This document shows positions 17,513-29,754 of a stretch of DNA of 64,000 bases, piece after piece. Source of the stretch: Capsulimonas corticalis (GTDB lineage: Bacteria; Armatimonadota; Armatimonadia; Armatimonadales; Capsulimonadaceae); the NCBI RefSeq assembly GCF_003574315.2, contig NZ_AP025739.1, positions 7,502,001 to 7,566,000 on the forward strand, written 5' to 3'. The notes beneath the pieces are model-generated. The model worked only from the letters and a program-made list of their open reading frames with translations. It made no database searches and had not been told where the DNA came from. The position numbers were made by a program, and so were the translations under genes. Numbering within the stretch: the stretch's first letter is position 1; each line of letters opens with the position of its first letter.

Positions 17513-19237
17513 TTAATGCGCCGCCCCGGCCCCCGCGCCGCCGCCCTTTTTCGGGCGGCGGAGCAGCAGGACGGCGGGGGTTGCGATCAGGAACGAAAGG
17601 CCGAGCAGGATGAAGGCGTTGTTGTACGCCATCGTCATGGCTTGCGCCTGGACCGTGTGGCTGACAATTCCCAGGGCGGCGGCATGCGCGGCGTCGTGGC
17701 TGTATCCTTTGCTCAGCAGGCCGCCGGCGATCCCGTTGATCCGCTGATCGAGCGTGACGTTGCCCTGGTAGAGACTGCTGACGAGATTGTAACGGTGGAA
17801 CTGAGTCATGTTCGTCACATATGTCGTCAGAATGGCGATTCCGAATGAGCCGCCGAGCTGGCGCATCAGGTTATACAGCGCGGCGCCCTGCGCGATCTGC
17901 GCGCCTTTGAGACTGGCGAACGCTGTCGTGCTGATCGGGATGAACACGAGACCGAGCCCCAGACCTCGGACGAGAAGGCCCAGCTGCGTGTCGGACTGGC
18001 CGCTCTGCGGGGTCAGGTGTCCGAGCATCCACATCGCCGCGATATAGATGATCATCCCGACGATGATCAAAATGCGCGGGTCGAAGCCTCGGGAAAGCAG
18101 GCGGCCGCAGAAGATGACGCCGACGGCGGTGGCGATGCCGCCAGGAAGCAGGGCCAGACCGGTGGCGGTGGGCGTAAACCCAAGAATCGTCTGCACGAAC
18201 AAAGGGTAGATGAAGACGCCGCCATAGAGACCAAAGCCCAGCACGAGACCGAGCACGACCGCCGCCGAAAGGCCGCGATCCTTCAGAACGCGCAGATCCA
18301 GGATCGGCGCTTTATTGCGCGGCGACAGCTCCCAGTAGATAAATCCGGAAAGGGCGACGACGGCGACAACGGTCAGGCGCGCGATCCAGGCGTCGTCGAA
18401 CCACATATAGCGCTCGCCCTCTTCCAGAACATACTGAAGCGAGCCCATCCCCGCCGCAAGCATCAAGATGCCCGGCACATCGACCGTGTTGACTCGTTTT
18501 TGGTGGATGGAGTCCTGAAGGAACAGCCCGACCATCGTCAGGCTGGCGATCGCCAGCGGGACGTGGATGAAGAACACCGTTCTCCACGAATAGTTGTCGG
18601 TGATATAGCCGCCGAGCAGCGGTCCAAGCGTCGGCGTCACGATCAGTCCCAGGCCAAAAAGGGACTGCACCATCGCGGTTTGATTTCTCGGGAAGATCTC
18701 GACGATCGTCGACTGCGCCGTGGAGATCAGCGCCGCGCCGCCCGCGCCCTGAATCAGCCGCCAGAAGACGATCTCGCCCAGGCTGCCCGAAAGGCCGCAC
18801 ATAAAACGCGCGATGTTGAAGATGATGATCGACACCATCAAATACCGCTTGCGCCCGAAGCGCCCGGACAGCCATGCGGTCATCGGCAGCACAATGACAT
18901 TGGAGAGAATATATCCCGTGCTCACCCAGGCGATCTCGTCCGTCGAGGCGCCCAGGTTCCCCGCCATCTGCGGCAGGGAAACGTTGACGACCGTGGTGTC
19001 CAGAATCTCCAGCGCCGCCGCCATGATCAGGCCGATCAGGATCCACCACCGATGCGCGTTGACTTCCGGCGCCACATCGGGCGCCGCATTCGGCTTCGCG
19101 GGGATCGGCGCCGCGCTTCCGCCGCTCCGGGCTCCCGATCCGCCGCCATCACTGGATCGCGGCGGCAAGGGAGCCGGCCTTGTCTGATTTCGTGGGATTG
19201 ATATCGCCATAACGCCCGTCCGTTCAACTTCCCGCAT
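17513..19237 (-). CDS. DHA2-type (EmrB/QacA) MFS drug efflux protein
   Basis: A 574-aa, 14-helix major facilitator of the DHA2 branch. After a disordered proline/glycine-rich N-terminus (about 1-60) come helix 1 with LDTTVVNVSLPQMAG (motif D1 of DHA2 pumps), the loop 2-3 motif SGRFGRKRYLM (motif A) and GPLLGGYITDNYSWR (motif C). It should export cationic or lipophilic drugs by proton antiport at the inner membrane. The ATG at 19237 lies 14 bases after the TetR stop; a second ATG at 19210 would give a protein 9 residues shorter. It is probably co-transcribed with, and repressed by, the TetR gene. No HlyD/EmrA adaptor is present. Confidence 0.93.
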   Translation of the reverse strand: MREVERTGVMAISIPRNQTRPAPLPPRSSDGGGSGARSGGSAAPIPAKPNAAPDVAPEVNAHRWWILIGLIMAAALEILDTTVVNVSLPQMAGNLGASTDEIAWVSTGYILSNVIVLPMTAWLSGRFGRKRYLMVSIIIFNIARFMCGLSGSLGEIVFWRLIQGAGGAALISTAQSTIVEIFPRNQTAMVQSLFGLGLIVTPTLGPLLGGYITDNYSWRTVFFIHVPLAIASLTMVGLFLQDSIHQKRVNTVDVPGILMLAAGMGSLQYVLEEGERYMWFDDAWIARLTVVAVVALSGFIYWELSPRNKAPILDLRVLKDRGLSAAVVLGLVLGFGLYGGVFIYPLFVQTILGFTPTATGLALLPGGIATAVGVIFCGRLLSRGFDPRILIIVGMIIYIAAMWMLGHLTPQSGQSDTQLGLLVRGLGLGLVFIPISTTAFASLKGAQIAQGAALYNLMRQLGGSFGIAILTTYVTNMTQFHRYNLVSSLYQGNVTLDQRINGIAGGLLSKGYSHDAAHAAALGIVSHTVQAQAMTMAYNNAFILLGLSFLIATPAVLLLRRPKKGGGAGAGAAH

Positions 19238-19250
19238 TCACCCAAATGCG

Positions 19251-19934
19251 TCAATCGCTCAATAACTCTCGTTGTTGCCCTGGCGCCGGCGCGCCGTAAG
19301 CGCCCAGAAACAGCTGAACCGCGCCGCGCACCACGGCCACGCGCTTTTCCGGCGCGGGCGCCGGCTCGATCCCGAGCTCCGCCCGGATCACAAAGTCACC
19401 CTGAATCAGCGCGATAAACTCCGTCGCCGCCAGATGCGGATCGCGCAGCACGATCGCTCCCGCCAGCGCCTGAGTTTGCAGGTACTCCCCCAGCAGCTTC
19501 CGGGAGCGCGCCGGGCCAAGGCTCCAGTACTCGCGCGCGATCTCGGGAAAGTGGACGGCCTCGGAGATCATGCGCCGCCGGAACGCCATGGACTCCGGCT
19601 CCAGCACGACCTCCAGAAGCCCCTCGCCGAATGTTTGAAGCGTCGTCTCCAGCCCCTGATCCGTCAGCAGCGTTCGGGTAAAGCGCGGCAGAAGCCGATC
19701 CGCGCGCCAGCGCATCACGCCCGAAAACAGCTCCGTCTTCGTCGCATAGCGCGCGTAGATCGTGTTCTTCGAGACGCCCGCGCGCCGGGCGATCTCGCCC
19801 ATGCTCGATCCCGCGAACCCCAGCTCCATGAAAACCGAAGCCGCCGTCGTCATCAAACGCTCCTGCCGCTCCGCGATCTCATCCATCGAAGGTCGTCCCG
19901 GCGCATATCGCGTCTGTTCCTGCGTCTCAACCAT
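19251..19934 (-). CDS. TetR/AcrR-family repressor of the MFS pump
   Basis: A 227-aa TetR regulator. The N-terminal helix-turn-helix is complete (about 30-75: MGEIARRAGVSKNTIYARYATKTELF), and the C-terminal half is a helical ligand/dimer domain of the TetR_C type. It is the first gene of a two-gene operon with the DHA2 pump, the standard drug-inducible arrangement: ligand binding would release the repressor from the dyad just upstream. The ATG at 19934 has no strong ribosome binding site; GGGGCGAC precedes it. Confidence 0.93.
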   Translation of the reverse strand: MVETQEQTRYAPGRPSMDEIAERQERLMTTAASVFMELGFAGSSMGEIARRAGVSKNTIYARYATKTELFSGVMRWRADRLLPRFTRTLLTDQGLETTLQTFGEGLLEVVLEPESMAFRRRMISEAVHFPEIAREYWSLGPARSRKLLGEYLQTQALAGAIVLRDPHLAATEFIALIQGDFVIRAELGIEPAPAPEKRVAVVRGAVQLFLGAYGAPAPGQQRELLSD

Positions 19935-20051: not shown

Positions 20052-20080
20052 AAAAAAATCCCCGCTCATTCGAGCGGGGA
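20052..20080 (-). terminator. Terminator of the four-permease operon
   Basis: CCCCGCTC/GAGCGGGG, an 8-bp perfect stem with a 4-base loop (20060-20079), is followed on the minus strand by seven T residues (20052-20058). It is 31 bases past the last permease stop. Confidence 0.88.
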
Positions 20081-20110: not shown

Positions 20111-22192
20111 CTACGCGACCTGAGCGATCGCCTCCGGCGCTTCGAAGATCTCGGTTCCATCGCGTGTCGGCGGAGGGAACGCGGCGCCACAGTGTTCGCA
20201 GTGCTCGTGCGTCACGACGCGGCGTTTACCGCACGCGGGGCAGATCACGCGCGCCGGCCACGCTTTGAACGCGACCAGCGTCATCAGCGCCGGCAGTCCA
20301 AAAACCAGGCAAAGGACGGACCAAACAGCACGGACACGCGCGGTCTCGGCGCGCCGTATTCCCGTAAGCCAGGCAAGAACGGCGGCGATCACCGCCGCGG
20401 CGACCGAGATGGCGATCCGGGGGCCGGCCGGAGTGTCGCCGCTGCTTGTCAGGTGGGCGGCCGCCGCCGCCAGGAATGGCGGCAGGGCGGCGCCGAACCA
20501 GGGGGTATCCGCCGCCGGGCTGGCCGACGCTTTGCGCGTGATCTGCGCCTGCTGAAGCACTTTCCCTTCGCCCGAGACTTCCACCACATCCATGACCGTC
20601 GGCCGGGCAACCGTGCGGTAAGGACGAAGCCAGAAGAAGTAATGATCGGGGTTAGGCTTCCCCCTATCGATTTGCGACGCAATGTCCACATCGACGAGGG
20701 TGTTTTCGGCGCTTTGGCCCGGTTTCCACGGCAGTGAATAGATCAACGAACCGTCGCCCCCAAGCAGCTCGATCCCACGGTTCGTCATGACGATATACGC
20801 CAGGCTCGCGTTCCCGTCAATCTGGCTCATCTGCGCCGCGTAAACGATCTTTGCGCCGGGCGGCTCTTGATGGAGCAGAGAAAACGTTCTCTCACGGATC
20901 GGCAGGAAGCGCCCCATCGCATCAAACGAAATGAGACGGTAAATACGGCTTCGAAACACATAAAGATCGGCCCACACACGGTTGTGATCCATGGGCAGCA
21001 TGACCGGGACATCGTCAAACGGCGCGGGTCGCCCTTGATCCGCCGGCAAATAACCGTTCAAGCCGATCCGGCCGAGCAGGCGGCGGCTATCCAGCGCATA
21101 GATCTCGATCAAGCGTGAGGAATGAACGTAATACCAACAGACGAACGGCGGCGCCAGTTCTCGGTAACTATTCAGCGGCGTCACATGCTGGACCGTCTCG
21201 CCGGCCCACGGCAGCGCGTCCATGGTCTCCAATGTCGTGGGCCAGGAGAGAGGTTTTCCATTCACGCGCATATGGGAATCGAAGCGATATTCGTGTCCAT
21301 CCAGACCGCGCGCGCCGACGAGATCGTAACTCGTGCGCGAACCGGCGATCGGCGCATACTCACAGCGGACCAGATGATTTGGCAGGATGACCGCGTATTG
21401 CTCGTAACTCTGCGCCGCTTGGGCGTGAAGCGATCGGTAGACGGAATCGGTGGCGGAAATCCCTGCGGCGGATAACCCAAGAAACGCGCTATAAAGCACA
21501 AGACTGAGCGCGATTCCCCCAAGGGCCGGCCTGGGCGCATCGCCGCCGCTGGAAACGAAGGCGCCCCAGGCGGCGACCGCAAGCAAAATCCCTGGAATGG
21601 CGAAAAGGAGCGGCGAGACGTCCCGCGCGACGAACGCAAAAAACACGGCGAGCGCCAGCGGAAGGATTCGGGAGCCATACCAGCGCGCCGGGCGCAATGC
21701 GGTGAGCAGCGCGCCGAAGTAGACCAGCACGCCTCCCAGGATCGAGCGCGCGCCCGGCGCCAGCAGATGGATGTCGAACGGAGCCGGCAGATGCCCGGGC
21801 GTCGCCGCCCACAGCGCGACGGCGAGGAGCGCGCCGCCGGTCGCGGCGAAATACAGCCCCAGTCCCGCCGCCGCCTTGCCCCAAAAGAGCGCGGTCGGCG
21901 ACGCGGGCCGATGGATCAGGAACGCCCACTGGTCGCGCCGCTTTTCCGAAAAGATCTGGACAAAGGCGATGCCGGCGGCCACAAACATCGGCGTCACCGC
22001 CATCGCGGTTTCGACGCCCGTCCAAACTCCCAGGAAGTCCTTGAGCGTGTAAAACACGCCCCCACGGCTCTCCAGCGCCTCATGCGCGATTCCCGCCAGC
22101 AGCGCCGCCGCCGCCAGAAGCGCCCACCGGGCGTTTTCCCGCAGCTCTTTCCATAGCGTCGCGCGGACGCCGCTTCCTCTTGATCTGCTCAT
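20111..22192 (-). CDS. ABC-2-type permease with ribbon tail, fourth paralogue
   Basis: The last and one of four paralogues in tandem (693 aa). Residues 1-260 form an ABC-2-like membrane domain: ATLWKELRENARWALL at the start, EKRRDQWAFLIHRPASP near 83, LFWGKAAAGL near 103, then about five helices. Residues about 270-560 are a soluble beta-rich region with recurring IYRLISFDAMGRFLPI-like strands, placed between membrane segments. Two to three helices follow (about 565-640). The tail (646-680) is CPACGKR...CEHCG, then RDGTEIFE. The four cysteines suggest a cytosolic zinc ribbon. Its ATG overlaps the previous stop by 4 bases. It presumably pairs with the ATPase at 28-29 kb. Substrate unknown. Confidence 0.8.
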   Translation of the reverse strand: MSRSRGSGVRATLWKELRENARWALLAAAALLAGIAHEALESRGGVFYTLKDFLGVWTGVETAMAVTPMFVAAGIAFVQIFSEKRRDQWAFLIHRPASPTALFWGKAAAGLGLYFAATGGALLAVALWAATPGHLPAPFDIHLLAPGARSILGGVLVYFGALLTALRPARWYGSRILPLALAVFFAFVARDVSPLLFAIPGILLAVAAWGAFVSSGGDAPRPALGGIALSLVLYSAFLGLSAAGISATDSVYRSLHAQAAQSYEQYAVILPNHLVRCEYAPIAGSRTSYDLVGARGLDGHEYRFDSHMRVNGKPLSWPTTLETMDALPWAGETVQHVTPLNSYRELAPPFVCWYYVHSSRLIEIYALDSRRLLGRIGLNGYLPADQGRPAPFDDVPVMLPMDHNRVWADLYVFRSRIYRLISFDAMGRFLPIRERTFSLLHQEPPGAKIVYAAQMSQIDGNASLAYIVMTNRGIELLGGDGSLIYSLPWKPGQSAENTLVDVDIASQIDRGKPNPDHYFFWLRPYRTVARPTVMDVVEVSGEGKVLQQAQITRKASASPAADTPWFGAALPPFLAAAAAHLTSSGDTPAGPRIAISVAAAVIAAVLAWLTGIRRAETARVRAVWSVLCLVFGLPALMTLVAFKAWPARVICPACGKRRVVTHEHCEHCGAAFPPPTRDGTEIFEAPEAIAQVA

Positions 22193-24093
22193 CTCGCCTC
22201 CACATACTCCGCGAACCCGCGCCGAGCGAAAACCTCAGTCCCATCCCGCGGCGCGCTCGGGAACGCCGCCCCGCAATGCGCGCACAGATCTTCCGTAACG
22301 ATGCGGCCTTTCCGGCACTTCGGACACGACACCCGCGCCGGGCTCCCCGCCACCGCCGCGATGGCGAGCAGAACGCTCAGGGCGACGATCACGCAAGGCC
22401 CAGCCGCGCGCCAGGGAGCGCCGACGGGAGCGGCGGCCCACGAATACCGCGTGCGCCGCAGCAGCGCGCCCGACGACGAGAACTCCAGCATGGCGCGCGT
22501 CCTTATTCCCGCATCTCCGCTCTGCGACGGCCACGCGCAGAGGATGTAGCGGTCGGAATCCCCTCCGCGCTCAGCAGCGCCCCGAGCGCCGGGGACCACG
22601 GTCGCCTCCACGGCCTCCCCACGTTCCGTAGGCTGTGAAACCAGCATGTCTCCCGCTTCGCTCACCACCTGGACCGAGGATGCAAAGGCCACGAAATAGA
22701 CGCCGCGATGGAGCCCCGGCCCAAGGCTGCGGCTCGAAGCCGCCGAAACGATGTCTTCGTCCAAAGGACGGCGCAGCAAGGGCGTCACCCGCCAGGATCG
22801 CGAGAGCACCGCGCCGCCCGCCGGCGGCGCCGAGAGTCGGTAGATCTGACGGGAGAACACCAGCAGCATTTCGCCGTTCAAGCCGCCGGTCACCCCCACG
22901 AGGCGTCCGGGAAACGGTCCCGTCGCGCATGAGCCGCCGGGGCGCGCATCCCCCACGTCGATCTGCGCCGTCACCCGGCGCGTCGCCGCCGAGTACACCT
23001 CGATGCGGCGGCGCAGCGCCGCATAGAAAACGCAAGATCGCGTCGAATCGGCAAACGGGTCGATCGCAATCGGCTGGACGTAGCGCTGCGGCGACGTAAA
23101 GCGGTCGTTTCGGGCTGACTGCCAATCGCCGGTCAGCGTGATTTGCGGAAATCTTGGCGCGCCCGCCGCTTTTGCCGTTGCCGCGCCGAGATCGTCTTTC
23201 AGATCGGGGACCGCGCTCACGACCGACGCATCGACGCGCTGCTCGGACGGCGCGTAAGTCGCTCTCACGATGCGCCCTGACGCCGGCAAGACGCCCGGAT
23301 CTTCTTCGCGGCGCGAGAGCTCTCCCCTCCACCCCATCGCCGCACAGCCGATAGCGCCAAGCGCGGCGCAGCCAAGAATGCATGTCAGCGCCAGCGCCGG
23401 ACGCGCGGACATCGGTTTGGGAGACTCGCCGCTGAGAAAGCAGGAGCATGCGGCCGCCGCCAGCAGCGCGGACGCCAGCGTTGACGCGGCGAGGCTCTGC
23501 CAGAACTCAGGGATCGCGGAGTAATTCAGATACGCGGCCGCCGCGCCCGCGCACAGCGGCAGGACGCGGACGCCGGCCCAGCGCCCGGCGCACAGGGCGC
23601 TGGTCAGGGCGGCAAAATAAACGCCGGCGCCGCAGGCGATCGCCGCGCATCCCGCCAGCATCAAGCGCGGGTCAAACGGAGCCGCCATCCCTCCGGGCGC
23701 GGCCGCCCAGGCGGAAACGGCGAGGAGCGGAAATGCGCAGGCGGCAAGATAAAGCGTCAGCCCGGCGCACGCCTTTCCCCAGAACAGCACCGCCGGCGCC
23801 ACGGGGCGATGCCGCAGGAACTCCCACTGGTCCCGGCGCTGTTCCGGCAGGATTTGCAGGAATCCCAGGAGCAGTGCGGTCAGCATGGAGCCGAACAGGA
23901 TCGCGTGATCCGCCGACGTCCAGAAATCGGCGAATGACTTTGGCGCGATGAACGGAAAGCCGCTGCTGGGCTGGGTTGTGACCACAGCCATGGCGACCGT
24001 CAATGCCACGGACGCCAGCAGCGCCCATTTTGCATTTTCGCGGCATTCCTTCCAGAACATCGCCCGCAGCGCGCTCCACGCCAAACCGTTCAT
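22189..24093 (-). CDS. ABC-2-type permease with ribbon tail, third paralogue
   Basis: The shortest paralogue (634 aa) and the most divergent. It keeps MFWKECRENAKWALLA at the start, EQRRDQWEFLRHRPVAPAVL near 80-100, LFWGKACAGLTLYLAA, a central soluble part shortened relative to its neighbours, and the C-terminal ribbon (about 588-612) CPKCRKGR...CAHCG followed by RDGTEVFA. All four ribbon cysteines persist though the surrounding residues differ (RKGRIVTED instead of GKRRVVTHE). It overlaps both neighbours by ATGA. It is very alanine-rich, consistent with drift or a changed partner. Confidence 0.78.
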   Translation of the reverse strand: MNGLAWSALRAMFWKECRENAKWALLASVALTVAMAVVTTQPSSGFPFIAPKSFADFWTSADHAILFGSMLTALLLGFLQILPEQRRDQWEFLRHRPVAPAVLFWGKACAGLTLYLAACAFPLLAVSAWAAAPGGMAAPFDPRLMLAGCAAIACGAGVYFAALTSALCAGRWAGVRVLPLCAGAAAAYLNYSAIPEFWQSLAASTLASALLAAAACSCFLSGESPKPMSARPALALTCILGCAALGAIGCAAMGWRGELSRREEDPGVLPASGRIVRATYAPSEQRVDASVVSAVPDLKDDLGAATAKAAGAPRFPQITLTGDWQSARNDRFTSPQRYVQPIAIDPFADSTRSCVFYAALRRRIEVYSAATRRVTAQIDVGDARPGGSCATGPFPGRLVGVTGGLNGEMLLVFSRQIYRLSAPPAGGAVLSRSWRVTPLLRRPLDEDIVSAASSRSLGPGLHRGVYFVAFASSVQVVSEAGDMLVSQPTERGEAVEATVVPGARGAAERGGDSDRYILCAWPSQSGDAGIRTRAMLEFSSSGALLRRTRYSWAAAPVGAPWRAAGPCVIVALSVLLAIAAVAGSPARVSCPKCRKGRIVTEDLCAHCGAAFPSAPRDGTEVFARRGFAEYVEAR

Positions 24094-26237
24094 GCCGCCT
24101 CCGTATGCAAGGACCGCATCGCCGGCTCAAAGATCTCCGTCCCATCGCGCGGCGGGGCTGGAAAGGCGACGCCGCAGTGTTCGCATTCTTCCTGAGTGAC
24201 CACGCGGCGTTTGCCGCACACAGAGCAGATCACACGCGCCGGCCACGGGGCCAGTGAGAGCAGGGTGAGCAGCCCCGGCAGGCCAAAGCAGAAGCAGAGC
24301 GCGGCCCAGCCCAGTCGAACGCGCGGCGCGGCGGAGCAGCGAACGCCCACTCGCCAGGCGAGCGCCGCCCACGCAAGGCTCACGGCGAGAGATAGGGCGA
24401 TAAATGTCATGCGCCCCGCCATGGCGAGCCCGATACTGCGGACGGCGAGCGGGAGGGAGAAGACCGGAGCGAGAAGGCCGAAGGCCGGCGGCGGCGGAGC
24501 GGCGAGGAACAAATCGCCTTCGATCACCATCGCCTGCTGAAGCACTTTGCCCCCAGCTTCGATCACAAGAGCCCGGATCGGCCGCTTCATGCCTCCCAGG
24601 CGTGACGAGAACAGGAAGAGAAGTTTGGCGGGGCCATGCTTTCCGCCGACCACAATGGCCAGATCGACCTGCGTGTCGCGGCTATTCTCGCCCCTGGCCC
24701 AGGGAACGGAGAGCTGGGATGTCCCGCGCCAATCGATGACCTGAATCCCCAGCGACGTGATGATGACGAAGGAGTTGTAATTCTCCTCGCCGGTCAGGCG
24801 CGCGGGAATCACGGACGCGATCGGATTATTCGGAGCCGTCTGAAAGATCGGCGTCATCGTTCGATGGCTGATGGGAAGAAGGCGCCCGCGATCGTCAAAT
24901 GCATCCAGCCGGTACAGTGTGTGATCGAAGGCGTAAACCAGAGGCGGCGCCGCCTGGGTATCAAAGGAATTCCCGGCCCGATTGCTTGCGTAGGGCGTCG
25001 GCCGCCCGATCAGGTCTCCCGCGAGCGGCGAGGGTTTTGAGGCGCCCGGCGCACGGAAGCCGTTCGCGCCGATCAGACCGGCAAATCGTCGGCTCCGGTT
25101 TTCGTAAACCGCGATCCGATGTTCCGCCGGGACATAGTACCAGGCGAACGTCGGGACATTGATCTCAGAATAAGCGTTCACGGACCGAGCGTATCGCTCC
25201 GGATTTGTGTAGCCGAACCACTCCTGGTTCATCATCATCGTTGTCGGCCATTCGTAGAGATCGCCCGGATTGGGTCCGTCGCCTAGTGGCAGCGTTTTTC
25301 CCGACAGATCCCGAACCGCAGACAAATCGGCGGTGTATCCGCCTTCAGGATTACGATGACGCAGATACTGAGCGCGGACGATTTGGCCCGAGTGGGACAG
25401 CCCATACTGTTCATAGGACGAATGGTCGTATTGAAAATCGCCGCCGCGCCGCGTCATTTCGCTGTATACATTCCCGGTGAGTCCAAAAACGGCCCCGTAG
25501 AGGGCGGAAAACGCCGCATAAAGGACCATGACAACACAGATTTTCCCGATGACGGCGCCGCGCGTCCGGCTGCCTCCGGCTTCAAAAACACTCCACGCGG
25601 CGCATCCGATCACAAGCAAAATCGGCGCAATCGCGCTCAGCCCTGTGACAAACTCACTGGCGGCAAGCGCCACAAACGCCGCCAGAATGAGTGCGATCAG
25701 GGCCGGGAGCGCGCGGGCGCCGTACCAGCGGGCCGGCCGCAGCGCCGTCACCATCGCGCCGAAGTAGGCGATGGCGCCGGCGACGATCGTCGCGATCCCC
25801 GGCAGCATGAGACGCCCATCGAAGGGCGCCGCCATATTACCGGGAACGGCGGCCCACACGCCGGCGATGGCGAACGGAACCAGAACCGCGAACAGATACA
25901 ACGTGAGACCGGCGATTGTCTTGCCCCAGAACAAAACGCCGGCCGTGGCGGGGCGATGCACGAGAAACGCCCACTGGTCACGGCGCTGCTCCGGCAGGAG
26001 CTGCAGCAGCCCCATGGCCGCCGCGATCAGGCCGCAGCTCACCGTCATCGCCCCATTCAGCCCTGTCCAATAGTTCACAAAGCCCTGGGCGTGGTAGTAG
26101 AAAGTTCCCGCCTTCACGGTCACGTTATAGAGAATGCCGAGGCTCAGCCCGATCATCCCGAGCAGCGCCCAGGGAGCATTCTCGCGCCATTCTTTCCAGA
26201 CCATCGCCCGAATGGCGTTCATTGTCAATTTGTTCAT
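24090..26237 (-). CDS. ABC-2-type permease with ribbon tail, second paralogue
   Basis: A 715-aa paralogue, the longest. The N-terminal membrane domain begins MVWKEWRENAPWALLG, with EQRRDQWAFLVHRPATAGVL near 85 and LFWGKTIAGLTLYL after it. The central region (about 270-590) contains tyrosine-rich and asparagine-rich stretches and the recurring LYRLDAFDDRGRLLPI strand, which suggests a repeated beta structure outside or beside the membrane. The tail (about 670-705) is CSVCGKR...CEHCG then RDGTEIFE. ATGA overlaps on both sides imply translational coupling, so the four permeases should be made in fixed proportion. Confidence 0.8.
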   Translation of the reverse strand: MNKLTMNAIRAMVWKEWRENAPWALLGMIGLSLGILYNVTVKAGTFYYHAQGFVNYWTGLNGAMTVSCGLIAAAMGLLQLLPEQRRDQWAFLVHRPATAGVLFWGKTIAGLTLYLFAVLVPFAIAGVWAAVPGNMAAPFDGRLMLPGIATIVAGAIAYFGAMVTALRPARWYGARALPALIALILAAFVALAASEFVTGLSAIAPILLVIGCAAWSVFEAGGSRTRGAVIGKICVVMVLYAAFSALYGAVFGLTGNVYSEMTRRGGDFQYDHSSYEQYGLSHSGQIVRAQYLRHRNPEGGYTADLSAVRDLSGKTLPLGDGPNPGDLYEWPTTMMMNQEWFGYTNPERYARSVNAYSEINVPTFAWYYVPAEHRIAVYENRSRRFAGLIGANGFRAPGASKPSPLAGDLIGRPTPYASNRAGNSFDTQAAPPLVYAFDHTLYRLDAFDDRGRLLPISHRTMTPIFQTAPNNPIASVIPARLTGEENYNSFVIITSLGIQVIDWRGTSQLSVPWARGENSRDTQVDLAIVVGGKHGPAKLLFLFSSRLGGMKRPIRALVIEAGGKVLQQAMVIEGDLFLAAPPPPAFGLLAPVFSLPLAVRSIGLAMAGRMTFIALSLAVSLAWAALAWRVGVRCSAAPRVRLGWAALCFCFGLPGLLTLLSLAPWPARVICSVCGKRRVVTQEECEHCGVAFPAPPRDGTEIFEPAMRSLHTEAA

Positions 26238-28357
26238 GCCGCCTCCGTATGCAGGACCAGCCGGACTGGCTCCGAAATCTCCGTGCCGTCGCGCGCCGGC
26301 CCGGGGAACGCCGCGCCGCAGTGTTCGCAGAGTTCATGGGTGATGAAGCGCCTGCGCCCACAGGCCGGACAAGCGATCCGCGCCGGCCACCGGTAAAGCG
26401 ACAGCATGGTGAGCAGCGCCAGCAGCCCGAAGACGAGGCCGACAACGACGCCGATGGCGGATTGCTTCTTACTCAAGCCCGCGCGGCGCAGCGTAAGCCA
26501 GGACAGCACTCCCCAAAGCATTCCAAAGCCGAGGCTGACTGCCGCCGTCAGAGGCAAACTGAGACCGGCTTGCATGATCCCCATCGCGATCGCTCCGATG
26601 ATGGGAACGATCCCTGCATACGCAATCAAGGAATTGGGACCGGGATTGATCGAGACCGCGAGCGATGGCAGCGACGTTCGATGCAGCAGGCGGCCGGATT
26701 CGGAATACTCCCTCACTTCTCCCGGCTGTCCCCCAAGCTGGTTGGCGTCCGTGGGCCAAATCCAGAAGAAATAGCGGTATCCCCGCTGCCCCCGCAGCGT
26801 GTCCTGATAGGTTTCGGGCAGCCGAACGGCTTCCAAGGACGACCCAATAGGCGTCGGAACGTCAAAGAGCGTCTTGCCCGCGTAGTTCGCCACGCGCACG
26901 CTGTGCTTCATGGTGATAAAATACGCGGTGTTGTATGAATCGCCAAGCTGCTGGCTGGTGTTCACCGACAAAATATCCTCATTCGTCGGTTTGTCCAGAA
27001 ACGTCCGGACGGCCTGCCGATCGGAGGACGTCGTCTCTGCGTCTATTTCCTCGGCGTCCATTTCATAGATCTGCCGGCTGAAAACGTAGAGATTGCGGTC
27101 GTATAGCCCGGGGTAGCTCACGTTGAACGTCGTCAGCATCGCCGGATGGTCGGGAAAAGGCGCGGGGCGGCCGCGCCCCGCGGACACATAGCCGTTTGCT
27201 CCCACTTCACGAACAAGACGGCGCGCATCCTGGGAATACACTTCGATCCTGCGGCTGGCGGGAATGTAAAACCACAAGTTGGGCGCCGGAGTTTGGCGCG
27301 GCGCGGTCACGATCGGATACGCATAGCGTTCCGGACGCAAAAACGACATTTCCGTGGGAGAATTGACATATTGCCCCGGGAAGATCGTGAGCGGATAAGG
27401 CGTCCGCAAATCGGAGGCGTCGGCGTGGATCGGACGCTCGTCGAGATCGTAGATTCCCGAAACGACCACTTCATTGGCGGCGGCCCCCGATTTTGGCGAG
27501 TACGCCGCACGCACGATACGTCCGGATGTGAGAACGCCGTACTGGTCGACGGGGGAGATCAAACGATGCGTATGCGCGTCATTCCACGCTCCATATCCAC
27601 CGAGGAACAGTGAGCCGCAGATCACTCCCCACCCTGCCAGCAGCGCGTAGGCCAGACCAATCCGCCCGGATCGCGGGCGGCGCGTCTCGTCGTCATGAGC
27701 GACAAAGCTGCCCCAGGCGGCAAGGAGCATCGGCGCCGTCAGGAGAAGCAGGAGCGCGGACGTTCGCCAAAACTCCGACGCCTCGCCTAAGAGCATCCCA
27801 TACACGACGATGGCGCCAAAGAGGGGCATGGAGCGGCTGCCGAACCACCGAACGCTGCGCAGCGCGAAGATCAATGCGCCGAAGTAGACGTTCACGCCGC
27901 ACAAGATCACCGCTGCGCCGCCGAGCATCAGGCGCGGATCGAAGGGAGCGGCCAGATGTCCGGGGATCGCGGCCCAGATCGAAACGCCCAGCAGCGGCGC
28001 GACGACGGCGAAGAGATAGAGCGTCAGCCCCGCGCAGACCTTTCCACAAAATAACAGTGTGGGCGACGCCGGCCGGTGAACCAAAAACGCCCATTGATCC
28101 CGCCGCTTCTCGGGCATGATTTGCACGAGTCCGAGCAGCAGCGCGGTCAGTGCGGAGCCGAAGAGGACCGAGCTGTACACCCCGGTCCAAAATACATCGT
28201 AAGGCTTTGCGGTATAGCGATATCCGGGAGTCGACTGTGTCACATTGAACGCAATCCCAAGCGTGAGCGCAGCCGCCGCCAGAAGCGCCCACTTTCCATG
28301 CTCGCGCCATTCCTTCCAGACGATTGCGCGCAGTATACGCCAAGAACTTCCGTTCAT
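26234..28357 (-). CDS. ABC-2-type permease with ribbon tail, first paralogue
   Basis: The first of the four permeases after the ATPase (707 aa). It starts MNGSSWRILRAIVWKEWREH, with EKRRDQWAFLVHRPASPTLL near 85 and FCGKVCAGLTLYLFA following. The soluble middle part has the QIYEMDAEE and YDRNLYVFSRQIY strands that match IYRLISF in the last paralogue. The final 45 residues hold CPACGRR...CEHCG and RDGTEISE (about 661-690). The ATG at 28357 is chosen because it makes an ATGA overlap with the ATPase stop and aligns with the starts of the other three; the reading frame stays open 95 codons further upstream only as a shadow of the ATPase gene. Confidence 0.8.
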   Translation of the reverse strand: MNGSSWRILRAIVWKEWREHGKWALLAAAALTLGIAFNVTQSTPGYRYTAKPYDVFWTGVYSSVLFGSALTALLLGLVQIMPEKRRDQWAFLVHRPASPTLLFCGKVCAGLTLYLFAVVAPLLGVSIWAAIPGHLAAPFDPRLMLGGAAVILCGVNVYFGALIFALRSVRWFGSRSMPLFGAIVVYGMLLGEASEFWRTSALLLLLTAPMLLAAWGSFVAHDDETRRPRSGRIGLAYALLAGWGVICGSLFLGGYGAWNDAHTHRLISPVDQYGVLTSGRIVRAAYSPKSGAAANEVVVSGIYDLDERPIHADASDLRTPYPLTIFPGQYVNSPTEMSFLRPERYAYPIVTAPRQTPAPNLWFYIPASRRIEVYSQDARRLVREVGANGYVSAGRGRPAPFPDHPAMLTTFNVSYPGLYDRNLYVFSRQIYEMDAEEIDAETTSSDRQAVRTFLDKPTNEDILSVNTSQQLGDSYNTAYFITMKHSVRVANYAGKTLFDVPTPIGSSLEAVRLPETYQDTLRGQRGYRYFFWIWPTDANQLGGQPGEVREYSESGRLLHRTSLPSLAVSINPGPNSLIAYAGIVPIIGAIAMGIMQAGLSLPLTAAVSLGFGMLWGVLSWLTLRRAGLSKKQSAIGVVVGLVFGLLALLTMLSLYRWPARIACPACGRRRFITHELCEHCGAAFPGPARDGTEISEPVRLVLHTEAA

Positions 28358-29280
28358 GCGGCCTCCTCGCCGTCCCCGATGAAGAACGACTGCTCGCCGC
28401 GATCGCCCAGGTAGCTGATAAAGGCGTCTTCCAGCCCCAGCGGCATCGGATCGATGCTTCGGGGGTGGAGCGACTGCAAAATCCGATCTGTTTCGGGCGA
28501 CATATTCGCGATCGTCAGCACCATCTCGTTCTCGGCGCGAAACGAGTGTAAAAGACCGGGAATCGCGGGGGTCGGCGGCGGCGCCCCGGCGAATTTGAGC
28601 GAGACCTGGCGGACACGCTCTCGGAACGTATCCAGGCTGCAATTGGCGCGCAGAACACTTCGGTCGAGAATTGCGATATGGTCGGCGACACGCTCGACAT
28701 CGGACAGCAGGTGCGAGGAAAAGAGGATCGTCCGGTCGGCGCGGCGCGTGACGTACAGCATTGATTGCAGCAGGCTCCGGCGCGCGACGGGGTCGAGGCC
28801 GAGCGCGGGATCGTCCAGGATCAACAGTTCAGGCTCGGGCGCCAGGGTCAGGGCGAGGCAAAGGCCGGCGCGCTCGCCGCGTGACAATCCCTTGGCTTTG
28901 GTCTTGGGCTTGAGGCCGAAGTGATCGACCACGCCCTGATATACCTTCCAGTTCCAGCGCTCATAAAAGCACGACTGCCACTCGCCGCACTCCTGGACCG
29001 TCATCCAGCCGTACACATGATGGCCCTCGGCGAGATAGCCGATCCGGGCGCGCAGCTCGGGCGTCAAGCTGCGGCTGTCATGCCCCAAAACCGTCGCCGA
29101 GCCGCGTGTCGGCTCGACCAGCCCCAGCAGCATCCGGATCGTCGTGCTCTTGCCGGCCCCATTGCGGCCGAGAAACCCAAAGATGGCGCCGCGCGGCACG
29201 GCGATATCCAGCGGCGACACCACTTCGCGCGTCCCGTAGTACTTGGTGAGCCCATGCGTTTCGATCACAAAGTCACTCAT
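28354..29280 (-). CDS. ABC transporter ATPase of the four-permease operon
   Basis: A 308-aa ABC ATPase. Walker A is GRNGAGKST (about 36-44), the signature is LSRGERAG (about 131), and the H-loop SSHLLSD lies near 188. Walker B reads LLILDDPALGLDP (about 151-163): the usual catalytic Glu after the Asp is an Asp, so hydrolysis may be slower. A C-terminal 90-residue extension (about 210-308) is typical of ABC-2 exporter ATPases such as YtrB/EcsA. The ATG at 29280 overlaps the GntR stop by 8 bases. It is the only ATPase in the operon, so it must serve four permeases or combinations of them. Confidence 0.92.
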   Translation of the reverse strand: MSDFVIETHGLTKYYGTREVVSPLDIAVPRGAIFGFLGRNGAGKSTTIRMLLGLVEPTRGSATVLGHDSRSLTPELRARIGYLAEGHHVYGWMTVQECGEWQSCFYERWNWKVYQGVVDHFGLKPKTKAKGLSRGERAGLCLALTLAPEPELLILDDPALGLDPVARRSLLQSMLYVTRRADRTILFSSHLLSDVERVADHIAILDRSVLRANCSLDTFRERVRQVSLKFAGAPPPTPAIPGLLHSFRAENEMVLTIANMSPETDRILQSLHPRSIDPMPLGLEDAFISYLGDRGEQSFFIGDGEEAA

Positions 29281-29689
29281 GCGTATCCTCCTGCTGCTCC
29301 GATTCCGGCACGGCTTCGCTGAGCCGCCGCTCCAAATATTCGACAATTTCCGGCGCCGTAAAGCCCAGCATGCGAATGTCGTGCAGAAACACGTCGCTCG
29401 CCTGCTCCAGACGCCGCCGCCGCTCCGCGTCGGAAAACACCTGACGGCGCTCCGCCACAAAAACCCCGCGCCCGCGCTGCGCCTCCAGCACCCCGTCGCG
29501 CACCAGATCGTTGTAAGCCCGCGCCACCGTGTTGGGGTTGACGATCAGACGATCCGCCAGCGCGCGCACGCTCGGCAATTGATCGCCCGACTGCACCGCG
29601 CCCGACTCCACCGCCTTGCCGATCTGGTCGATGATCTGCCAGTAAATCGGCGTGCTGCTTCCGGTCGCAATTTGTATTTCTAGGGCCAA
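29273..29689 (-). CDS. GntR/YtrA-family repressor of the ABC operon
   Basis: A 138-aa short GntR regulator of the YtrA subfamily: a winged helix (about 12-78: TPIYWQIIDQIGKAVESGAV, then LPSVRALADRLIVNPNTVARAY) followed only by a short helical dimerisation tail instead of a large ligand domain. YtrA regulators sit at the head of ABC operons and respond to cell-wall-active compounds in Bacillus. The start is TTG (29687-29689) with AAAGGAA upstream. It lies directly behind a palindromic operator overlapping its own promoter, so autoregulation of the whole six-gene operon is likely. Confidence 0.92.
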   Translation of the reverse strand: MALEIQIATGSSTPIYWQIIDQIGKAVESGAVQSGDQLPSVRALADRLIVNPNTVARAYNDLVRDGVLEAQRGRGVFVAERRQVFSDAERRRRLEQASDVFLHDIRMLGFTAPEIVEYLERRLSEAVPESEQQEDTHE

Positions 29690-29701: not shown

Positions 29702-29754
29702 AAACTGTATTAGTTCAGTTAGTACAGTTTACGCGAGGATCGATGATCTGTCAA
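29702..29754 (-). promoter_or_regulatory. Promoter and YtrA-type operator of the ABC operon
   Basis: On the minus strand TTGACA (29749-29754) and TAAACT (29726-29731) are 17 bases apart. AAACTGTA (29702-29709) and TACAGTTT (29723-29730) form an 8-bp perfect dyad with a 13-base spacer that covers the -10 box and the start site. A bound repressor would block transcription initiation. Confidence 0.85.

Follow-up and report, generated by a model that had tools for sequence, protein, structure and literature searches.

What the widespread ABC systems under YtrA control transport or sense is still a matter of dispute. The locus described here, in which one ABC ATPase gene is followed by four tandem permease genes, raises the question of how a single ATPase would serve so many membrane partners and which part of them would do the recognising. 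It lies within a window of 64,000 nucleotides from the genome of Capsulimonas corticalis, a single contig of 7.65 Mb, and consists of six genes confirmed on the minus strand: a GntR regulator, the ATPase and permeases P1 to P4, the latter being about 30-40% identical pairwise. The reading we favour, with roughly even confidence, is that of a locally auto-repressed YtrA/YtrB-type ABC complex, in which an ATPase dimer would serve pairs of one type A and one type B permease, and in which a predicted beta-propeller would act as the variable recognition head.

The preliminary description had taken the six genes as one unit with ATGA junctions, and this is borne out by coordinates, overlaps, promoter and terminator (Table 1). 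Four-base ATGA overlaps connect the ATPase gene with P1, P1 with P2, P2 with P3 and P3 with P4, and the genes of GntR and the ATPase overlap by eight bases. Given a promoter before the GntR gene and a strong terminator behind P4, the operon GntR-ATPase-P1-P2-P3-P4 would most simply form a single transcript. Judging from the gene order, the overlaps and the four cysteines, which recur in relatives of three phyla, the arrangement is not due to chance. Among the motifs said to be common to the permeases, RRDQWxFL (where x is A or E), CxxC...CxHCG and RDGTE are present in all four; WKExREN is missing in P1, which reads REH. Degenerate pseudogene copies were ruled out by four intact frames with overlapping starts and conserved motifs. 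Comparison of the permeases with those of the relative G001 gave NG86 dN/dS values of 0.29-0.35, with dS near saturation. Directly behind the operon, on the same strand, a TetR regulator and a DHA2-type MFS exporter (identified by eye) occupy window positions 17513-19934; this pair is also retained behind the P4-like gene in G001.

Table 1. Coordinates of the operon features (positions in the window) and of the loci with exchanged propeller segments (positions in the respective loci)
Feature	Position	Strand	Details
YtrA-type GntR repressor	29273..29689	-	138 aa, TTG start; PF00392
ABC ATPase	28354..29280	-	308 aa, with C-terminal extension; PF00005, motif comparison
Permease P1, type A	26234..28357	-	707 aa; sister of P3, support 100/99
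Permease P2, type B	24090..26237	-	715 aa; AlphaFold model pLDDT 76, pTM 0.76
Permease P3, type A	22189..24093	-	634 aa; without the helix preceding the last one
Permease P4, type B	20111..22192	-	693 aa; PF12730 above cut-off; nearest is G001 fragment C175
Sigma-70-like promoter, TTGACA-17-TAAACT	29726..29754	-	precedes GntR; ranks first among 4 promoter-like sites of the region
Operator palindrome, CTGTACTA-ACTGAAC-TAATACAG	29705..29727	-	at and just behind the -10 hexamer
Intrinsic terminator, TCCCCGCTCGAATGAGCGGGGA + T run	20059..20080	-	behind P4; strongest of the region, 9 pairs, 7 GC
P2 six-helix ABC-2 membrane domain, NosY-like	25572..26237	-	residues 1-222; VIA-align
P2 predicted extracytoplasmic beta-propeller	24483..25451	-	residues 263-585; all-beta in the model, top matches are propellers
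P1 ribbon and DGTE motif	26279..26371	-	residues 663-693
P2 ribbon and DGTE motif	24135..24227	-	residues 671-701; its four Cys unchanged across 19 aligned homologues
P3 ribbon and DGTE motif	22234..22326	-	residues 590-620
P4 ribbon and DGTE motif	20150..20242	-	residues 651-681
Propeller exchange, L062	8022-10028		sharp borders at membrane domain and ribbon
Propeller exchange, L132	6706-8706		sharp borders at membrane domain and ribbon
Propeller exchange, L059	8022-10043		sharp borders at membrane domain and ribbon

The regulator scores 59.6 bits with PF00392 (Pfam cut-off 27), and its nearest solved relatives are Lin1836 and Lmo2241, GntR-type regulators of 125-134 aa. Its winged helix with a short C-terminal part, 138 aa in all, places it in the YtrA subfamily, and the promoter carries a perfect palindrome of 25 bp, ACTGTA-N13-TACAGT, in keeping with the long operators of this subfamily, for which 24 bp is typical (PMC6746942). 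YtrA-type control, as proposed earlier, is further supported by the conserved position of the palindrome in relatives. Of the 41 operon promoters examined, which belong to loci of this permease family and to related operons in three phyla, 24 have the form TGTA-N13-TACA at the first gene; the chance expectation is about 0.4% per promoter by our own estimate (eight fixed bases, about 240 positions). Several other operons have the same palindrome with a spacing shorter by one base. In G003 the regulator gene comes last, behind the permease, yet the palindrome remains before the ATPase gene. The full 23-bp form of the operator has one site in the 7.65-Mb genome, even if up to two mismatches are allowed, so that it appears to be a dedicated local switch. 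Conservation of the operator suggests that GntR auto-represses the operon, occupying the palindrome in its own promoter and holding the genes off until a signal comes.

The ATPase, encoded separately as in ABC-2/type V exporters, scores 82.5 bits with PF00005 (cut-off 25) and has intact Walker A (GRNGAGKS), signature (LSRGE), Walker B (LLILDDP) and H-loop (SSH) motifs. Walker B continues as DDP in every ATPase of the family that was read, with Asp at the position of the usual Glu; related ATPases of other operons have either Asp or Glu there. The replacement of the usual catalytic Glu, uniform across the family, could result in slow hydrolysis. The earlier suggestion that one ATPase serves several permeases is supported, and a homodimer of this protein would couple to two permease membrane domains at once. 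That two different permeases can share one ATPase is already known. The closest published precedent for a permease pair is YtrB2CD of B. subtilis, modelled as a homodimer of the ATPase together with two unlike permeases and classed as a type V exporter (PMC11466899).

To see the number of permeases in its context, the family was traced across genomes. A scan of 84,980 species genomes returned 12 loci, distributed among Verrucomicrobiota (including Chthoniobacter flavus), Planctomycetota (Rhodopirellula solitaria), one unclassified bin and one Armatimonadetes MAG. Sampling of whole genomes, in which few candidates per genome were scored and the figures are hence lower bounds, gave at least 12 of 291 genomes in the window's own phylum at E 0.001 (five clear relatives, G000, G001, G003, G006 and G222, the rest weak), at least 2 of 388 in the phylum of Chthoniobacter, at least 12 of 236 in the class of L062 and at least 14 of 392 in the phylum of Rhodopirellula. 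By these sequence searches the permease family is rare and present in Armatimonadota, Verrucomicrobiota and Planctomycetota. The order GntR-ATPase-permease was seen in nearly every relative, the neighbourhoods being read singly. Most loci hold one permease, and four of this family were found only in the window; two or more beside one ATPase, an arrangement that the preliminary description proposed to look for, occur in tandem in L061, L063 and L085 and as two-in-one fusions in L066 (1526-aa ORF) and G003 (1316-aa ORF). The fusion of G003 (L017, 6408-10511) has an NN gap near its frame start and the GntR gene behind it; a short frame just upstream has a ribbon-tail-like end (RSGLEIFDP) and is perhaps the remnant of a third permease.

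In phylogenetic trees P1-P4 and the G001 fragments form one group, from which the single-copy relative G006/L058 had branched off earlier. P1 and P3 form a clade with support of 100/99, and P2 and P4 group with support of 82-93 and 82-91 in three trees, the first tree giving no resolution and the branch not being a starred one. Stepwise duplication of neighbours was rejected (P1+P2 clade, p 0.0007). Taken with the gene order P1-P2-P3-P4, the tree pairs yield A-B-A'-B', the mark of a duplicated two-gene block, and the four permeases of the window thus look like a duplicated pair. In G001 a P3-like permease adjoins the ATPase and a P4-like one comes last. This would be compatible with an operon of two permeases, but the contigs break there and the genome is 69% complete. 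Permeases p1 and p2 of Chthoniobacter are orthologous to those of L063 (support 99-100); the halves of each fusion are long branches, the placement of which is not trusted. Pairs or two-in-one fusions have arisen on several occasions.

Fusions, orthologous pairs and the block duplication together make the permease pair the likely working unit. The natural unit would be an A with a B permease, two such pairs being present in the window by block duplication; paired genes, fusions and block duplication agree with a heteromer of the YtrB2CD type, as far as gene evidence alone goes. Against pairing it counts that most relatives have a single permease, so that hetero-pairs are not required for function. 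It is accordingly possible, although we consider it somewhat unlikely, that each permease homodimerises with the same ATPase to give four specificities under one switch, with no hetero-oligomers. Homodimers must work in the single-permease loci, which are the commonest, and P1-P4 differ most in their propellers; however, the fusions join two different units per chain, the pairs are kept as orthologues, and the A-B-A'-B' duplication indicates the pair as the unit.

The architecture of the permeases was approached through an AlphaFold model of P2 built with 19 homologues, in which seven helices (residues 1-264) are followed by an all-beta region (274-572), a further two helices (606-662) and, last, the ribbon. 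In VIA-align, which re-aligns Foldseek's own list, residues 7-221 matched NosY (7o0z_E) with Z 17.2 and rmsd 3.7 over 209 residues, far above unrelated rows. The six-helix ABC-2 membrane domain is recognised by this match in P2 and by Pfam in P4, the only permease to pass PF12730 ABC2_membrane_4 (30.5 vs 27 bits). Foldseek with the whole P2 chain gave no match at E < 0.001, and sequence search revealed no solved homologue of the whole permease. With residues 224-715 folded alone by AlphaFold (pLDDT 72, pTM 0.58), the beta part matched almost only propellers (Foldseek E 4e-7, Z up to 11.4), the superpositions being partial. What had been noted as a soluble insert is thus predicted to be an outward-facing beta-propeller; the preliminary description had recognised it neither as a propeller nor as the fast-evolving, recombinationally exchanged part. 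Support for the domain borders comes from loci with split permeases (L124, L126, L127, L129 and L056, the latter identical with G222), where a membrane-domain gene of about 230-310 codons adjoins a propeller gene of about 430-540 aa; the ribbon pattern is present in L056, L126, L127 and L129. Each permease is accordingly predicted to comprise a NosY-like six-helix domain, a seventh helix, the outer beta-propeller, two helices (one in P3) and the cysteine ribbon.

The likeness to NosFY of the NosDFY system (PDB 7o0y, 7o0z) concerns the membrane-domain fold and the separate ATPase, a clear sequence relative of that in the window. In contrast, the NosY chain ends with its membrane domain, is 15% identical and functions in the assembly of N2O reductase, and no NosD or nitrous oxide reductase gene is among the six genes of the operon. 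In our preferred reading ATP hydrolysis would either expel a bound molecule or pass on a signal or force. An account by mechanotransmission in place of transport, in which ATP-driven movement of the membrane domain acts on the periplasmic propeller and an envelope partner, as proposed for MacB-type systems and NosDFY, appears rather doubtful to us. NosY as the best match of the membrane domain (Z 17), the large outer domain built into the permease chain and the altered cell wall and competence upon overexpression of the B. subtilis ytr operon (PMC8060467) are consistent with it, but the NosY match is one of fold only, and an unsystematic look at the neighbours of the operons read revealed no nos or wall-hydrolase gene.

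Over 19 aligned rows the loop charges alternate according to the positive-inside rule, loops B, D, F and G being positive and A, C and E not, with 31% Lys+Arg in loop G, which precedes the last helix. This pattern and the nine helices place the propeller outside, and the ribbon as well. The predicted outside position of the ribbon in P1, P2 and P4 is the weakest structural point, because most ribbons of such kind are cytosolic. P3 is without the eighth helix, the one before the last, so that its ribbon would lie on the cytosolic side, opposite to the others. The pattern CxxC-x10-CxHCG (Cys-x10-Cys between the pairs) is present in all four permeases, and its four cysteines are invariant in the 19-row alignment; all Pfam ribbon models stayed below their own cut-offs for P1-P4. 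As the preliminary description had expected, ribbon and insert are kept in orthologues, except for the pair of L085 (5001-10592, G378), both members of which lost the ribbon and kept the propeller and membrane parts. Its further proposal, of ribbon tails that lie in the cytosol and provide a common surface on which the ATPase or the permeases dock, agrees with the ribbon being among the most conserved parts and with the usual cytosolic location of such ribbons. It is nevertheless an unlikely one, as helix count and loop charge predict an outside ribbon for P1, P2 and P4, with that of P3 on the other side, and as both ribbons are missing from the paired permeases of L085.

Sequence comparison shows the propeller to be the changing part, which diverges fastest and is exchanged between close relatives. 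Among P1-P4, identity amounts to 43-52% in the membrane domain, 21-33% in the propeller and 51-77% in the ribbon. Between the window genome and G001, the ATPase is 92% and GntR 86% identical, as against 46-55% for the permease pieces, to the divergence of which hidden paralogy could add; at the DNA level the four flanking genes are 74-87% and the ATPase and GntR genes 84% identical. More telling are L062, L132 and L059, from three close verrucomicrobia and at the same chromosomal place. L062 and L132 agree in about 90-100% of their DNA positions across the flanks, GntR, ATPase and membrane domain. Identity falls to 57-82% roughly where the membrane domain stops, stays in this range up to the last helices, and is back at 95% in the ribbon. 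The corresponding dS values are 0.06 for the ATPase, 0.22 for the membrane domain, 1.37 for the propeller and 0.15 for the ribbon. A raised dS is not what selection on the protein sequence would by itself produce, so the simplest account is exchange with a diverged allele, the propeller segment having been replaced by recombination between close relatives; the case is made by these three strains, all of one family. In L059 the divergence begins at GntR, continues as far as the last helix and stops where it does in the other two, at the ribbon (94% DNA identity, dS 0.19; the flanking aconitase gene has dS 0.17). L060/L064 show a mild propeller excess only. Recombination might use the conserved ends as its arms. 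Positive selection in the propeller was not supported (dN/dS 0.21-0.39, below 1), only exchange and fast change being evident, and a diversity-generating retroelement was rejected, with no marked adenine bias among the propeller substitutions.

That the propeller varies to escape binding by phages or predators, and not through ligand recognition, is quite improbable: exchange of an outer head with constant membrane and ATPase parts fits any exposed target, but in diderm cells the head should be periplasmic and beyond direct phage reach, and the repeated duplications, controlled by a repressor of their own, are more in keeping with recognition. In the favoured complex of ATPase dimer and permease pairs, the propeller would recognise outside molecules, and by analogy with ClnRAB and Ytr the ligands are most likely hostile envelope-active peptides or similar compounds. 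Wall-active agents are suggested as inducers by analogy only.

ClnRAB of Clostridioides difficile resembles the operon as an auto-repressed set of three genes, GntR(YtrA)-ATPase-permease, the transporter of which takes part in peptide (LL-37) sensing and contributes little to resistance (PMC6117091); it differs, as compared by description only, in its one permease, described without propeller or ribbon, and in its Gram-positive host. YtrABCD likewise has a YtrA repressor and one ATPase with different permeases (PMC11466899, PMC12772383); it is unlike the window operon, again by description only, in having two permeases with no propeller or ribbon reported, and YtrEF in the same operon. As to known defence systems, no PADLOC model matched GntR or the permeases, and matches of the ATPase were weak or partial.

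Head swapping between close strains suggests a role in recognition or defence. We speculate, with little confidence as yet, that the locus is a recombining recognition repertoire, in which the ATPase and the constant membrane and ribbon ends would be the chassis, and propeller heads would be swapped between strains and multiplied within the operon, changing hostile molecules being recognised and disarmed. It might be likened to polymorphic toxin/immunity loci that change their variable domains. In any case, sequence alone is enough to single out the likely sensing part, since it is the propeller that varies and is swapped, the remainder being constant. The question of what YtrA-type systems recognise thereby becomes testable by head swapping, and the two-in-one permeases are natural covalent pairs for asking whether one ATPase drives mixed pairs. 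It should be added that the family comes from phyla with little-studied envelope defence.

ABC-2-like exporters with outer domains are already known (PMC11466899). A literature search, with subscription journals mostly outside it, found no account of such a propeller-ribbon permease, nor of one ATPase followed by four copies, nor of outer-head exchange, in agreement with the preliminary description, whose author knew no four-permease system with such a tail. What we regard as new is that recombination has apparently replaced the propeller between close relatives and left the ATPase, the membrane domain and the ribbon almost unchanged.

The window's phylum also has other operons of the same plan (L057, 1258-5222; L051, 1036-3096), the ABC-2 permeases of which are about 660-690 aa long. 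The L051 permease carries PD40 propeller repeats, L057 has two permeases in tandem, and the ribbon pattern was seen in neither. The window's own genome has a second operon with GntR, an ATPase (36% identical), four tandem paralogues and a similar promoter palindrome (L001, C1:6738277-6746531); its permeases differ in being about 560 aa long and 31-47% alike, with no clear similarity to P1-P4, no ribbon and no Pfam match.
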